NCBI GenBank assembly: GCA_002086835.1 | Contig: MVIG01000003.1 | Span: 248,001 to 312,000 of the forward strand | Direction: 5' to 3' | DNA: 64,000 nt | Source: Mycolicibacterium porcinum | GTDB lineage: Bacteria > Actinomycetota > Actinomycetes > Mycobacteriales > Mycobacteriaceae | Shown here: positions 12,158-15,855 of the stretch, one piece after another | How the letters are laid out: each line of letters opens with the position of its first letter | Position numbering within the stretch: position 1 is the stretch's first letter | The notes under the pieces: model-generated | Database searches by the model: none | What the model was told of the DNA's origin: nothing | The model's input: the letters and a program-made list of their open reading frames with translations, nothing else | Made by a program: the position numbers and the translations under genes

Positions 12158-12389
12158 AGGCACATCACAACACATCGAGCGGGCGCGCACAGGCAACCGC
12201 AAACCCCCGGGCGGCTGCCAATTCCTGGGTGAACCCTGCGGAAACGCTCGAAGACTTCCGGTGACGACGGTCACGCTCAGGTCGCGAAGTGTCATTGCCG
12301 AACTGACACAACCGATTTGGAGTCGGAGATCTGACGGTGAACTGTGTTGACAATCGGGCGGTGTAGGGTTCTAATGAAATCCGCGCTTC
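12158..12389. promoter_or_regulatory. Upstream region and promoter of the mgtA leader
   Basis: A TTGACA -35 (12347-12352), 17-nt spacer and TCTAAT -10 (12370-12375) give a good sigma-A promoter that would start RNA at about 12382, just ahead of the M-box. Further upstream is an inverted repeat GTGTCA-N9-TGACAC (12289-12294 / 12304-12309) and GTGAC-N4-GTCAC (12261-12274). Either could bind a regulator of mgtA or of the divergent ATPase gene. No gene is seen here. Confidence 0.7.
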
Positions 12390-12546
12390 GTTAGGTGAGG
12401 CTCCTACACGAACACAGGCCACTGATCCGACGACGTCGAGAGACGCCCAGGATTAGGACAGGTCTTCCCGGCTTAAGGGATGACCCGAAGTGGCTTCCCA
12501 CCTCCAGTGGGACACGTCGTGTAGTGCCAAAGCTCTGATGAGGAAG
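12390..12546 (+). promoter_or_regulatory. M-box (ykoK) magnesium riboswitch aptamer
   Basis: The conserved 5' block GTTAGGTGAGGCTCC (12390-12404) and 3' block GTGCCAAAGCTCTGATGAGG match the M-box class closely. CTACACGA (12404-12411) pairs with TCGTGTAG (12517-12524) to form the closing helix of the core. CTTC (12386-12389) can pair with GAAG (12543-12546) as the outermost P1 stem. M-box RNAs fold around Mg2+ and turn down Mg transporter genes when Mg2+ is plentiful, and the next long gene downstream is mgtA. Downstream, GAGGAAGT (12540-12547), which includes the 3' P1 strand, is exactly complementary to ACTTCCTC (12585-12592). It encloses a CGCGCC/GGCGCG hairpin (12551-12568) and is the likely switching helix. 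Confidence 0.93.
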
Positions 12547-12665
12547 TGCTCGCGCCAAAACCGGCGCGTTCGGCCATGTGCCCAACTTCCTCTTCAGCGT
12601 TCATGTCTGACGACTGCGTCAAGGCCAGCGCCCTGTGCGCCCGACAGCGAGGAGGTGACGACGAC

Positions 12666-12749
12666 ATGACGTCAAGTGACAGTCCGTATCCCAGTCCGAT
12701 TCGAAAACGTCTGTCCATAAACATCTTTCCGCTGTCGATGACTGCGTAG
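12666..12749 (+). CDS. Proline-rich 27-aa leader peptide candidate of mgtA
   Basis: A short ORF with a strong AGGAGG site (12650-12655, 10 nt before ATG). The peptide reads MTSSDSPYPSP followed by IRKRLSINIF and a short tail. Its pattern is an acidic residue, three prolines at alternate positions, then a basic cluster. This resembles enterobacterial MgtL (EPDPTPLPRRR type), a leader peptide that senses proline supply and Mg2+ by ribosome stalling or instability. It lies between the M-box and mgtA. An in-frame upstream ATG at 12603 would give a longer form. Translation is inferred from the ribosome site and composition; homology to MgtL is not claimed. Confidence 0.55.
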   Translation: MTSSDSPYPSPIRKRLSINIFPLSMTA

Positions 12750-12752
12750 ATC

Positions 12753-12779
12753 ACCACCCCGGGCACCCGCGGTGGGTGG
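12753..12779. other. Hairpin after the leader peptide
   Basis: CCACCC pairs with GGGTGG around an inner CGG/CCG stem, starting 4 nt after the leader-peptide stop. There is no T-tract. It could act as a pause or Rho-dependent attenuation site controlled by translation of the peptide. Confidence 0.45.
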
Positions 12780-12831
12780 CTGCCGCATGCCTGCCGACAC
12801 GGAGAGCTCCGATTCAGATGGAGTTGATCCC

Positions 12832-13005
12832 ATGCAGCGCAACACCTTTCTTCGCCGTACCCAGGGCTTGGTCAGGGGACCGATCGCGTGGATCCACACG
12901 CGCGCATCGCTGACCCCGCAGGAGCGGCACAACCTGAGGATGAGCAACACCCCGGTGGCGGTCCTGACCGCCTCGCTGGGCGGCGGCTCACATACCGCTC
13001 CATAA
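12832..13005 (+). CDS. Small ORF (57 aa) in the mgtA leader
   Basis: ATG at 12832 with GGAG 8 nt upstream. Encodes 57 residues, basic and Arg-rich in the first half (QRNTFLRRTQGLVRGPIAWI), with the tail TASLGGGSHTAP. I do not recognise it and there is no clear membrane span. It lies 165 nt before the mgtA start, inside the riboswitch-controlled transcript, so it would be made when Mg2+ is low. It could be a small partner of MgtA, a second leader peptide, or not a real gene. Confidence 0.4.
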   Translation: MQRNTFLRRTQGLVRGPIAWIHTRASLTPQERHNLRMSNTPVAVLTASLGGGSHTAP

Positions 13006-13039
13006 CCGAGCGAACCCACATCCCTTTGATTCAACCAAC

Positions 13040-13063
13040 GTTCACGTCGCTACCGACGTGAAC
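13040..13063. other. Perfect 10-bp inverted repeat before mgtA
   Basis: GTTCACGTCG (13040-13049) and CGACGTGAAC (13054-13063) are exact complements around a 4-nt loop. It is an RNA hairpin or a protein operator 108 nt before the mgtA start. No T-tract follows. Confidence 0.6.
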
Positions 13064-13170
13064 CGATCCCCGACAACCCGCACACACCCCAAGTCTCACC
13101 GAATCTCGGCTTTTGCCAGCAGGTTCGGTGTGACTTGCAGTGCGCGCCCACCACCGACAGGAGCAGCCAG

Positions 13171-15855
13171 ATGAACACCGCTGTCGCGCAAACCGCCCTG
13201 ACCCCGACCGGGCATGCCGACCGGCTGTCGCTGCGTGCGGCCGCTGAGGCGCACAACGACCTGGACGTCACGCTCGCCAACGTCAGAGGCCATCTCGACG
13301 GCCTGACCATAGAGGACGCCGCCGAAAGGCTGGCCGACGACGGCCCCAACGAGGTGGCCCACGACAAGGCGCCACCCGCACTCCTCCAATTCCTGGAAGC
13401 CTTCAGGAACCCGTTCATCGCGGTACTCATGGTGCTGGCCGCCATCAGCTCGGTCACCGACATCTACCTGCCGATTCGTGCCGGACAGGACGCGGACTAC
13501 ACGGGCGTGTCGATCATCGTCACCATGGTCGCGCTCAGCGCCCTGCTGCGGTTCTGGCAGGAGTACCGCTCGGGCAAGGCGGCCGAAACACTCAAGGCGA
13601 TGGTGCGGAACACCGCGACGGTGCGGCGCCGGGCCAGCCCCGACGCCACGCCCGAACTGATGGAAGTCCCCATGGCGCAGATCGTTACCGGCGACATCGT
13701 CCAGCTGTCGGCCGGCGACATGATCCCCGCCGACATCCGCCTGATCGATTCTCGCGATCTGTTCGTCAGCCAGGCAGCGCTGACGGGTGAGGCCCTGCCG
13801 GTGGAGAAGTACGACACCGCCGTTGCCGCCGACGACGGGGCCGACCCGCTCGACCTGCCCGGCATCTGCTTCATGGGCACCAATGTGGTGAGCGGCACCG
13901 CGACCGCGGTCGTCGTATCGACCGGCGGACACACCTATTTCGGGTCGCTGGCCACCGCGATCGTGGGCTCACGCGCGGAGACGGCCTTCGACCGGGGCGT
14001 CAACAGCGTGAGCTGGCTGCTGATCCGCTTCATGTCGGTGATGGTGCCGATCGTGTTGCTGATCAACGGTTTCACCAAGGGCGACTGGCCCGAGGCGGTC
14101 CTGTTCGCGCTCGCCGTCGCGGTCGGGCTCACCCCGGAAATGCTGCCGATGATCGTGTCGTCCAATCTCGCCAAGGGTGCCGTCGCACTGTCGCGTCGCA
14201 AGGTCGTGGTCAAGCGCCTCAACGCGATCCAGAACTTCGGCGCGATGGACGTGCTGTGCACCGACAAGACCGGCACGCTCACCCAGGACCGAATCATCCT
14301 CGAGCATCACGCGGACATCCAGGGCGACCGCGACGACAACGTGCTCGCACTGGCCTGGCTCAACAGCTTTCACCAGAGCGGCGTCAAGAACTTGATGGAC
14401 CGTGCCGTCCTGCACTTCGCCGACGGGACACCCGAAGCGCTGCTCGCCGCCTCGACCTACCGCAAGGTCGACGAGCTTCCGTTCGACTTCGAGCGACGCC
14501 GGCTGTCCGTCGTGGTGCAGGACGTCGACCGTAATCACCTGCTGGTCTGCAAGGGAGCAGTCGAGGAGATGCTGGCGGTGTCCACCCAGGTGTGGGACGG
14601 CATCGCGGCCCGGGAGCTCACCGATGCCGACCGCGCGGCACTGGCGGCAAAGGCCCGCGAGTACAACCGCGAGGGGTTCCGCGTGCTCCTGGTGGCCACC
14701 CGAGAGATCCCCCGCGTTCAGCGGACGCACCGGTACAGCGTCGAGGATGAGCGGGACCTCGTGGTCCACGGCTTTCTCACGTTCCTCGATCCGCCGAAGG
14801 AGACGGCCGCGCCGGCACTCACGGCCCTGGCCGAACACGGCGTCACCGTGAAGGTCCTCACCGGTGACAACGAGGTGGTCAGCGCCAAGATCTGCACCGA
14901 GGTAGGGCTCGATCCCGGCCGGCCCGTTCTCGGCTCCCGGATCGACGCCCTCGACGACGACGAACTCCGCCGCATTGCCGACGAGACAACCGTATTCGCG
15001 AAGTTGACCCCGCTGCAGAAGTCCCGAGTACTGCGTGCGCTGCAGGCCAACGGGCACACGGTCGGTTTTCTGGGCGACGGCATCAACGACGCGCCGGCAC
15101 TGCGCGACGCGGACGTGGGCATCTCGGTGGACACCGGCACCGACATCGCCAAGGAATCGGCGGACATCATCCTGCTCGAGAAGAGCCTGATGGTGCTCGA
15201 AGAGGGCGTGGTCAAGGGCCGCGAGACATTCGGCAACATCGTCAAGTACCTGAACATGACCGCCAGCTCGAACTTCGGCAACGTGTTCTCGGTATTGGTG
15301 GCCAGCGCCTTCATCCCGTTCCTGCCGATGCTGGCGATCCACCTGCTGATCCAGAACCTGCTGTACGACGTCTCCCAGCTGGCCCTGCCCTGGGACCGCA
15401 TGGACAAGGAGTACCTCCTCAAGCCGCGCAAGTGGGATGCCAAGAACATCGGCCGTTTCATGATCTGGATGGGACCGACGTCCTCGATCTTCGACATCAC
15501 CACCTTCGCGGTGATGTGGTACGTCTTCGCGGCCAACTCACCGGAGATGCAGTCGCTGTTCCAATCGGGCTGGTTCATCGAAAGCCTGCTGTCGCAGACG
15601 CTGGTCGTACACATGCTGCGCACCCGGAAGATCCCGTTCATCCAGAGCACCGCGGCGTTGCCGGTGCTGCTGACGACCGGCGCGGTCTGTGTGCTCGGGA
15701 TCCTGATCCCGTTCTCACCGCTGGGCGCGGCTGTCGGATTGCAGCCGCTGCCCTGGGCGTACTTCGGTTGGCTGGTCGCGACGCTCGTGTCCTACTGCGT
15801 CGTCGCTCAGACCGTGAAGACCATCTACATCCGCAAGTTCGGTCAGTGGTTCTGA
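13171..15855 (+). CDS. mgtA: Magnesium-translocating P-type ATPase MgtA
   Basis: 894 aa from ATG 13171, chosen for its GGAG site 7 nt upstream; the in-frame ATG at 13135 has none. Family P3B, matching the length of E. coli MgtA. The N-terminal cation-ATPase domain (about residues 35-110) is followed by an actuator motif LTGEALPVEK. The phosphorylation motif DKTGTLTQD begins at Asp365, the hinge is GDGINDAPALRDADVGISVD, and about ten spans include the C-terminal bundle. It imports Mg2+ with ATP. Control by the M-box riboswitch upstream strongly supports the magnesium role. A strong hairpin terminator follows 10 nt after the stop. Confidence 0.95.
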   Translation: MNTAVAQTALTPTGHADRLSLRAAAEAHNDLDVTLANVRGHLDGLTIEDAAERLADDGPNEVAHDKAPPALLQFLEAFRNPFIAVLMVLAAISSVTDIYLPIRAGQDADYTGVSIIVTMVALSALLRFWQEYRSGKAAETLKAMVRNTATVRRRASPDATPELMEVPMAQIVTGDIVQLSAGDMIPADIRLIDSRDLFVSQAALTGEALPVEKYDTAVAADDGADPLDLPGICFMGTNVVSGTATAVVVSTGGHTYFGSLATAIVGSRAETAFDRGVNSVSWLLIRFMSVMVPIVLLINGFTKGDWPEAVLFALAVAVGLTPEMLPMIVSSNLAKGAVALSRRKVVVKRLNAIQNFGAMDVLCTDKTGTLTQDRIILEHHADIQGDRDDNVLALAWLNSFHQSGVKNLMDRAVLHFADGTPEALLAASTYRKVDELPFDFERRRLSVVVQDVDRNHLLVCKGAVEEMLAVSTQVWDGIAARELTDADRAALAAKAREYNREGFRVLLVATREIPRVQRTHRYSVEDERDLVVHGFLTFLDPPKETAAPALTALAEHGVTVKVLTGDNEVVSAKICTEVGLDPGRPVLGSRIDALDDDELRRIADETTVFAKLTPLQKSRVLRALQANGHTVGFLGDGINDAPALRDADVGISVDTGTDIAKESADIILLEKSLMVLEEGVVKGRETFGNIVKYLNMTASSNFGNVFSVLVASAFIPFLPMLAIHLLIQNLLYDVSQLALPWDRMDKEYLLKPRKWDAKNIGRFMIWMGPTSSIFDITTFAVMWYVFAANSPEMQSLFQSGWFIESLLSQTLVVHMLRTRKIPFIQSTAALPVLLTTGAVCVLGILIPFSPLGAAVGLQPLPWAYFGWLVATLVSYCVVAQTVKTIYIRKFGQWF

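Follow-up and report, generated by a model that had tools for sequence, protein, structure and literature searches.

An M-box leader of the Rv1805A (uORF2) type, with a predicted self-pairing start region, precedes a small-protein gene and mgtA in Mycolicibacterium porcinum

Layout of the leader and its downstream genes

The locus described here is a mycobacterial uORF2 (Rv1805A)-type M-box leader that lies before a small-protein gene and mgtA. All of its features are on the forward strand of the window, by which we mean the whole 64,000-nucleotide stretch of Mycolicibacterium porcinum DNA that was analysed. The M-box (RF00380) aptamer at 12380..12552 was matched by cmscan over the full model (model positions 1-169) at 143.5 bits (E 1.9e-32), against a curated cut-off of 44, and is the sole M-box match in the genome assembly. 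The structure line of this match sets the aptamer's P1 at 12384-12389 with 12543-12548, and the 3' strand of P1 is overlapped by SD1, or anti-anti-SD (GAGGAAGTG, 12540..12548). Further downstream lies alphaSD (12585..12597), a pyrimidine-rich stretch complementary to SD1 or to SD2. Indeed, in the MFE fold of the leader without its aptamer, 12535-12547 pairs with 12585-12597, and the duplex energies, computed without loop penalties, are -18.1 kcal/mol for SD1:alphaSD and -13.0 kcal/mol for alphaSD:SD2. SD2 (AGGAGGTG, 12650..12657) is the ribosome site of uORF2 and stands 8 nt before its ATG, a spacing found in 107 of 147 genus leaders. The ORF itself, uORF2, occupies 12666..12749 and its translation is a peptide of 27 aa (MTSSDSPYPSPIRKRLSINIFPLSMTA), so that the original prediction of a 27-codon ORF with a ribosome site between the M-box and mgtA is borne out.

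The hairpin that was predicted 4 nt past the uORF2 stop is present in the window (12754..12779, with arms CCACCC at 12754-12759 and GGGTGG at 12774-12779), but it varies among close relatives and is missing in one leader, L145. No intrinsic-terminator-like or promoter-like sites were found in a scan of 12200-13250. A GTG frame at 12546 that runs in frame into uORF2 (uORF1, 67 aa) was discounted because its start touches the SD and indels in the leaders of relatives break the frame. A second small ORF, overlooked in the original prediction, separates the peptide from mgtA and encodes a 57-aa protein of the LTPQER...ASLGGG family (12832..13005). The gene at 13171..15855 is mgtA, for a Mg2+-translocating P-type ATPase, with NF011702 (1645 bits) and TIGR01524 (1381 bits) both over cut-off.

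The 57-aa protein has its own SD and a core of the form LTPQERxNL...TPxAVxTASLGG, and neither Pfam nor NCBIfam has a match for it at E 0.01. Against Mycolicibacterium septicum and two M. peregrinum records its pS is 0.24 and its pN 0.04-0.06, which shows purifying selection. Its family has 34 matches in 31 of 118 genomes of the genus, at least 27 of which begin no more than 1 kb downstream of an M-box. It is a candidate metal-regulated small protein. In L145 (genome G020), an M-box, uORF2 and a 57-aa-type protein are present and no mgtA or other recognised transporter gene lies within 2.7 kb downstream, the next recognised gene being an AMP-binding enzyme on the other strand; a 770-aa frame, the longest ORF there, proved false, with 0 Pfam matches. 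Since L145 has the switch and the small protein, and mgtA was not seen, the switch may have controlled the small protein before it controlled mgtA.

Leaders of this kind have been described before. The pe20 M-box of M. tuberculosis acts via a translational platform and Rho and controls a uORF2 that is Rv1805A (PMC12810186), and the statement in the original prediction that no such mycobacterial pairing was known is thus superseded. The same account gives Rv1805A a conserved N-terminus with Pro7, proposes competition of SD1 (at the aptamer end), alphaSD and SD2, and divides mycobacterial M-boxes into four classes, namely pe20, Mn, rv1535 and mgtE (PMC12810186). For the pe20 leader it reports that uORF2 is translated, that deletion of alphaSD gives about twofold more uORF2 expression, and that termination is Rho-dependent (PMC12810186). 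Like the leaders described there, that of the window has the aptamer, SD1 at the aptamer end, alphaSD, SD2, a Pro7 ORF and no intrinsic terminator; unlike them, it has the 57-aa protein and mgtA as its downstream genes. From the published description (an SD2-led ORF, the N-terminus and Pro7) and the codon comparison, the window's ORF can be assigned to the Rv1805A family, and the SD1/alphaSD/SD2 complementarity that marks uORF2 of mycobacterial M-boxes is likewise found in its sequence. With mgtA downstream, the locus falls into none of the four classes as published and therefore represents a further context.

The M-box/mgtA arrangement was found only in G000 and G021 among the examined M-boxes of the 118 genus genomes, the G021 DNA being identical to that of an M. 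peregrinum record (L127 = L158). The peptide-codon pattern was also matched in three records of M. peregrinum and one of M. septicum, and in an alignment of these four records with L127 the start of mgtA comes after it. Among the matches listed in a search of literature titles and abstracts, most subscription papers lying outside its scope, neither an mgtA-type mycobacterial M-box nor a lock within uORF2, of the kind set out below, is described.

Distribution of uORF2 in the genus and the family

An M-box was found in 63 of the 118 genomes of the genus sample, and 55 had no match. We examined 150 M-boxes with flanks, the window's included, among the matches listed (8 later-found ones were not added), and behind 147 of these an SD-led frame of 15-40 aa stands at the expected place. 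Because such a frame recurs at the same place behind 147/150 M-boxes, uORF2 is beyond chance, even though at least two of the 147 frames are open to doubt, that of L057 having arisen by chance and that of L101 being doubtful. The start codons of the 147 are ATG (106), GTG (19), TTG (17) and ATT (5), the last including the chance frame and the doubtful one. In the other ATT leaders (L131, L135 and L089), the SD and codons of uORF2 are kept; AUU initiation would be unusual, and limiting. With L057 set aside, the peptides are 21 to 34 aa long.

In the family sample, M-boxes occur in 62 of 251 genomes and, counting the window's own genus, in 18 of 31 genera. Of the 94 matches, 67 lie outside the genus, of which 61 were examined. 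An SD-led ORF of 8-45 aa follows in 51 of these 61 non-genus leaders, and 18 of the 61, from 8 other genera, are clearly uORF2-like by eye (e.g., MKSGDSPYPSPVRKSLSF and MPPGDSPYPSS), whereas other non-genus ORFs have different N-termini such as MDDPPSRYS and MPDDSRSRS. The family of uORF2-like ORFs is therefore wider than the genus and not mycobacterium-specific, although the peptide has been called mycobacteria-specific (PMC12810186).

Several leaders show further variation. Acid-proline starts are found even where a non-genus peptide is otherwise unlike uORF2; for example, the short ORFs of four non-genus leaders (L170, L178, L216 and L221) start with MDDPP, MDEPP or MPDD, and the next gene in L221 is MgtC (Pfam). 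L147 and L148 carry uORF2 copies without a detected M-box. The L147 copy precedes PE and PPE genes; L148 has an apparent decayed aptamer upstream and a downstream protein that ends like the LTPQER family. In L032 (match 102909) and L048 (match 4123497), the uORF2 start is lost and the later TTTCGTTCCGATCCGG stretch is kept, which hints that this stretch of RNA has a use of its own. M-boxes grouped in clusters and divergent pairs that span a few kb were seen in G071 C11, G117 C1, G060 C1, G083 C4, G138 C12 and G179 C50.

Constraint on the peptide and pairing of its start region

Changes in uORF2 were counted on a tree built from the aptamer for 118 of the 147 leaders, all ungapped, and pairwise for 132 of the 147; leaders were left out for want of an ungapped anchor, for another length or as duplicates, and L057 was excluded from these counts as well as from the proline-position counts, the acid/Pro counts and the swap tests below. 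The tree-based non-synonymous/synonymous ratio is 0.28 for codons 2-9, 1.12 for codons 10-16 and 1.11 for codons 17-23, and the pairwise ratios agree (0.38, 1.10 and 1.11). On these ratios, codons 2-9 are constrained as protein and codons 10-23 are neutral as protein. Where a ratio could be computed, the most constrained codons are D5 (0.05), Y8 (0.17) and P7 (0.24), with 22 synonymous vs 7 non-synonymous changes at D5 and 21.5 vs 10.5 at P7. In addition, AGT is nearly fixed at codon 2 (119/132) and codon 6 (123/132), and the N-terminal conservation is therefore partly not protein-level. Codon 6 is conserved at the nucleotide level, since its synonymous changes are zero; no pairing partner for the AGT codons 2 and 6 was found in the 132 leaders. 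uORF2 is thus a leader peptide, as the original prediction held, and a conserved one; the lack of conservation of peptide codons that it had named as telling against the idea is not what we found.

The consensus N-terminus is MSxxDSPxx. Among 137 unique peptides of the genus, prolines fall mostly at odd positions (P3 in 59, P5 in 3, P7 in 112, P9 in 64 and P11 in 60), with proline at each even position from 2 to 12 in 1-9 peptides. The window's peptide has P at residue 7 and DSP at residues 5-7, shared by 112/137 and 90/137, respectively. Residues 2-9 include both an acidic residue and a proline in 127 of the 137, as they do in 41 of 48 peptides from other genera. Among 157 SD-led N-termini taken from long ORFs in the same DNA, only 39 include both; this background set is mechanical and uncurated, and the counts compared with it come from related peptides and are non-independent. 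Even the non-SPYP-like uORFs of other genera have both in 26 of 29 peptides (20 of 23 distinct 9-mers). The "acidic start" of the original prediction stands insofar as there is one acidic residue, but it goes no further than D5. When mycobacterial M-box leaders were compared, as the original prediction had proposed by way of a check, a short ORF proved conserved, but the P7/P9/P11 triple occurs in only 16 of the 137 peptides, and the basic run is not a kept feature, three or more K/R in residues 12-17 being found in 1/137, the window's own.

If the second half of uORF2 is neutral as protein, perhaps it serves as RNA. In the MFE fold, the stretch 12643..12657 (GACAGCG and the GGAGGTG of SD2) forms the 5' arm of an outer stem with 12722..12736, a 3' arm inside uORF2 (codons 19-24; alignment columns 3-17 with 82-96) that covers SD2. 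An inner stem around the start codon, read from the alignment, joins 12663..12672 to 12707-12715 (codons 14-17), with 9 pairs, 0 broken and 1 compensatory G-C to A-U change in L145. The predicted structure, which we call the lock, takes up the whole GGAGGTG of SD2 in the window, leaving the Shine-Dalgarno buried in the MFE fold. RNAalifold, run by class, likewise pairs the stretch between SD2 and the start with codons ~14-17.

The lock was tested by swapping partners between leaders, with the start region (-12..+3) set against +33..+63 (codons 12-21); the leaders were sorted by peptide regex into classes A, B, C and X, and class A took in L110, L111 and L114, where the following gene groups with the Nramp genes. 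In 132 genus leaders, cognate partners pair at -13.92 kcal/mol vs -12.30 when swapped (z -8.7), and a repeat gave z -9.2 overall and -4.9 within class. The 48 leaders of other genera gave z -8.1, the 20 chosen as uORF2-like, three weak ones among them, z -4.1, and all 183 leaders -14.03 vs -11.79 kcal/mol (z -13.8; within class -9.3); one L188 M-box leader is absent from the 48 and 183 sets. Kinship inflates all of these swap z-scores, and permutation within the rough classes corrects them only in part. Segments not overlapping the arm showed no comparable preference (z -1.4 to +3.7), whereas the overlapping segment +18..+48 gave z -6.3 in the genus, with other values of -1.2 (other genera) and 0.0, and +48..+78 gave +2.0 in the genus and -3.7 in other genera, and also -0.7.

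The same test was applied to other pairings. SD1 prefers its cognate alphaSD half across the 183 leaders (z -5.7 for all, -6.2 within class). For the pairing on which the published model relies, between the TIR and upstream sequence, the genus leaders showed no preference (z +1.4), and the 183 leaders gave, for all and within class, -0.1 and -2.3 with the 5' half and +6.2 and +3.5 with the 3' half; this test is low in power because SD2 is nearly invariant. Pairing of the 3' arm with downstream sequence was rejected, the preference for post-stop segments being weak overall (z -2.0 to -3.9) and little within class (+0.1 to -2.5; class A -0.3 to -1.1).

The alignment of the mgtA-type group has 7 rows, 4 of them distinct (the window, L127, L145 and the four named records, L127 and L158 being the same DNA). 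Pairing holds in 119 of 119 cells and one change is compensatory, but covariation within this group alone is not significant (131/500 shuffles). The energy of the window's hairpin is ordinary (z -1.18; 21/200 shuffles fold as well), and the start region with its own ORF has an isolated duplex energy of -26.3 kcal/mol, computed without loop penalties. In the leader MFE without the aptamer, SD1:alphaSD and the lock coexist (z -2.08; 6/200 shuffles as good); as the two can coexist, the step that would carry the Mg2+ signal to the lock is one that we infer. The overall pattern suggests that the first nine residues matter as protein and the second half only as foldable RNA that hides its own start.

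A proposed gate-and-lock model and its alternatives

We consider it fairly probable, on this comparative evidence, that the leader works through an M-box gate, a self-locking uORF2 and a nascent peptide that acts in cis. The complementarities SD1:alphaSD, alphaSD:SD2 and SD2 plus start:codons ~14-24 are present in the sequences, and the order of events proposed for them is as follows. At low Mg2+, P1 would open and SD1 would capture alphaSD, leaving SD2 free for the 50-80 nt of transcription that pass until its own 3' arm emerges. A ribosome loading in that interval would hold the lock open and shield the RNA from Rho, so that the small protein and mgtA would be made. At high Mg2+, alphaSD would briefly mask SD2 and the ribosome would miss the interval, after which the uORF2 hairpin would lock SD2 away and transcription would end prematurely. 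Going by the duplex energies, alphaSD could gate SD2 only briefly here, since the lock is the stronger pairing and forms after it. The uORF2 peptide would act in cis as a nascent chain, its first nine residues, with acid and proline, probably slowing or destabilising the early ribosome and thereby setting the time for which the lock stays open, and the remainder of uORF2 would be kept for its RNA and not for its residues.

A different view is that uORF2 is a functional small protein acting in trans, the M-box merely controlling the first gene of an operon; indeed, the authors of PMC12810186 suggest that Rv1805A modulates or joins a Mg2+ transporter. Conservation of the frame in 147 of 150 genus leaders speaks for such a protein, as do copies without an M-box (L147, and Rv0115A in PMC12810186), and the L147 copy fits a trans-acting peptide about as well. 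This copy nevertheless still sits in a leader position, before PE and PPE genes, and we regard a trans-acting protein as unlikely when over half of the peptide (codons 10-23, ratio 1.1) is without protein-level constraint, lengths vary from 21 to 34 aa and, as reported in PMC12810186, expression with pe20-ppe31 made no visible biofilm difference. One might also hold that the peptide has no role, only RNA features (SD, start context and hairpin) being conserved and any translated sequence being good enough. The near-fixed AGT at codons 2 and 6 and a second half that is neutral in amino acids and constrained as RNA agree with this, yet D5 and P7 keep their residues while their third positions change, and acid plus proline recurs in the non-SPYP-like peptides of other genera, so that we also think a roleless peptide improbable.

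A special case of a cis nascent-chain role, with odds that overlap those of the gate-and-lock model, is that the peptide is a second Mg2+ sensor in series with the M-box, at which ribosome drop-off at low Mg2+ would alter folding and termination, as for MgtL. Like MgtL, uORF2 is a short peptide encoded in the leader of an mgtA transcript and has acid and proline near its start, and the MgtL model is Rho-linked (PMC11282234); the MgtL motif EPDP, with Glu2 and Asp4, gives drop-off at low Mg2+ (PMC11282234), and M. tuberculosis depleted of Pth accumulates peptidyl-prolyl-tRNA (PMC9973355). The enrichment of acid plus proline in residues 2-9 and the bias of prolines to odd positions 3, 7, 9 and 11 are also consistent with such a sensor. 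Unlike MgtL, however, the window's peptide has TSSD at residues 2-5 and no EPDP, its metal sensor is an M-box, and the latter half of its ORF pairs back onto the start region. The window does show alternate prolines ahead of a basic run, as the original prediction observed, but this layout is unconserved in the genus and, on the counts of the P7/P9/P11 triple and the basic run, a property of a small group; what stands of the resemblance is acid plus proline in residues 2-9. P9 and P11 are not universal, related peptides are non-independent, and residue 5 is the main acidic position, leaving many peptides with a single early acid, whereas clear dependence on EttA, a read-out that is related but not the same, took at least a DPEE motif (PMC11282234). 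The sign of the effect is also ambiguous, since drop-off would favour the lock. In a term search, the words MgtL and destabili- were absent from the main text of PMC12810186. uORF2 is thus not MgtL; that it works like MgtL, as a second sensor in series, is possible though doubtful. A family-wide and convergent second Mg2+ sensor, made of a destabilising acid/Pro N-terminus and a second half that as RNA locks the ribosome site of the same ORF, seems to us quite doubtful; if true, an MgtL-like device would have evolved a second time and been joined to a riboswitch from another class.

Other leaders offer partial parallels to the gate-and-lock model. MgtQ of the Salmonella mgtCB leader is, like uORF2, an early-acidic short ORF whose translation controls stems before a Mg2+ transporter gene; unlike uORF2, it is 8 aa long, intergenic and acts on the mgtB RBS, and the account in PMC8092293 mentions no riboswitch for it. 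The B12 riboswitch-uORF leaders of M. tuberculosis (PMC11260477) likewise combine a riboswitch with translation of a uORF, although the ligand differs.

To the account in PMC12810186 we add, from comparative data throughout, the occurrence of uORF2 in other genera, the constraint confined to the N-terminus and a covarying lock between the start and the ORF. The role of Rv1805A/uORF2, called unclear in that 2026 paper (PMC12810186), thereby becomes a matter of simple cis/trans tests. The split between nine residues that appear to be kept as protein and a remainder kept as an RNA lock points away from a free-standing transporter subunit. If, in addition, the peptide is Mg2+-sensitive, then two unrelated lineages would have placed ribosome-stability sensing before genes for Mg2+ uptake, in one case downstream of a riboswitch.
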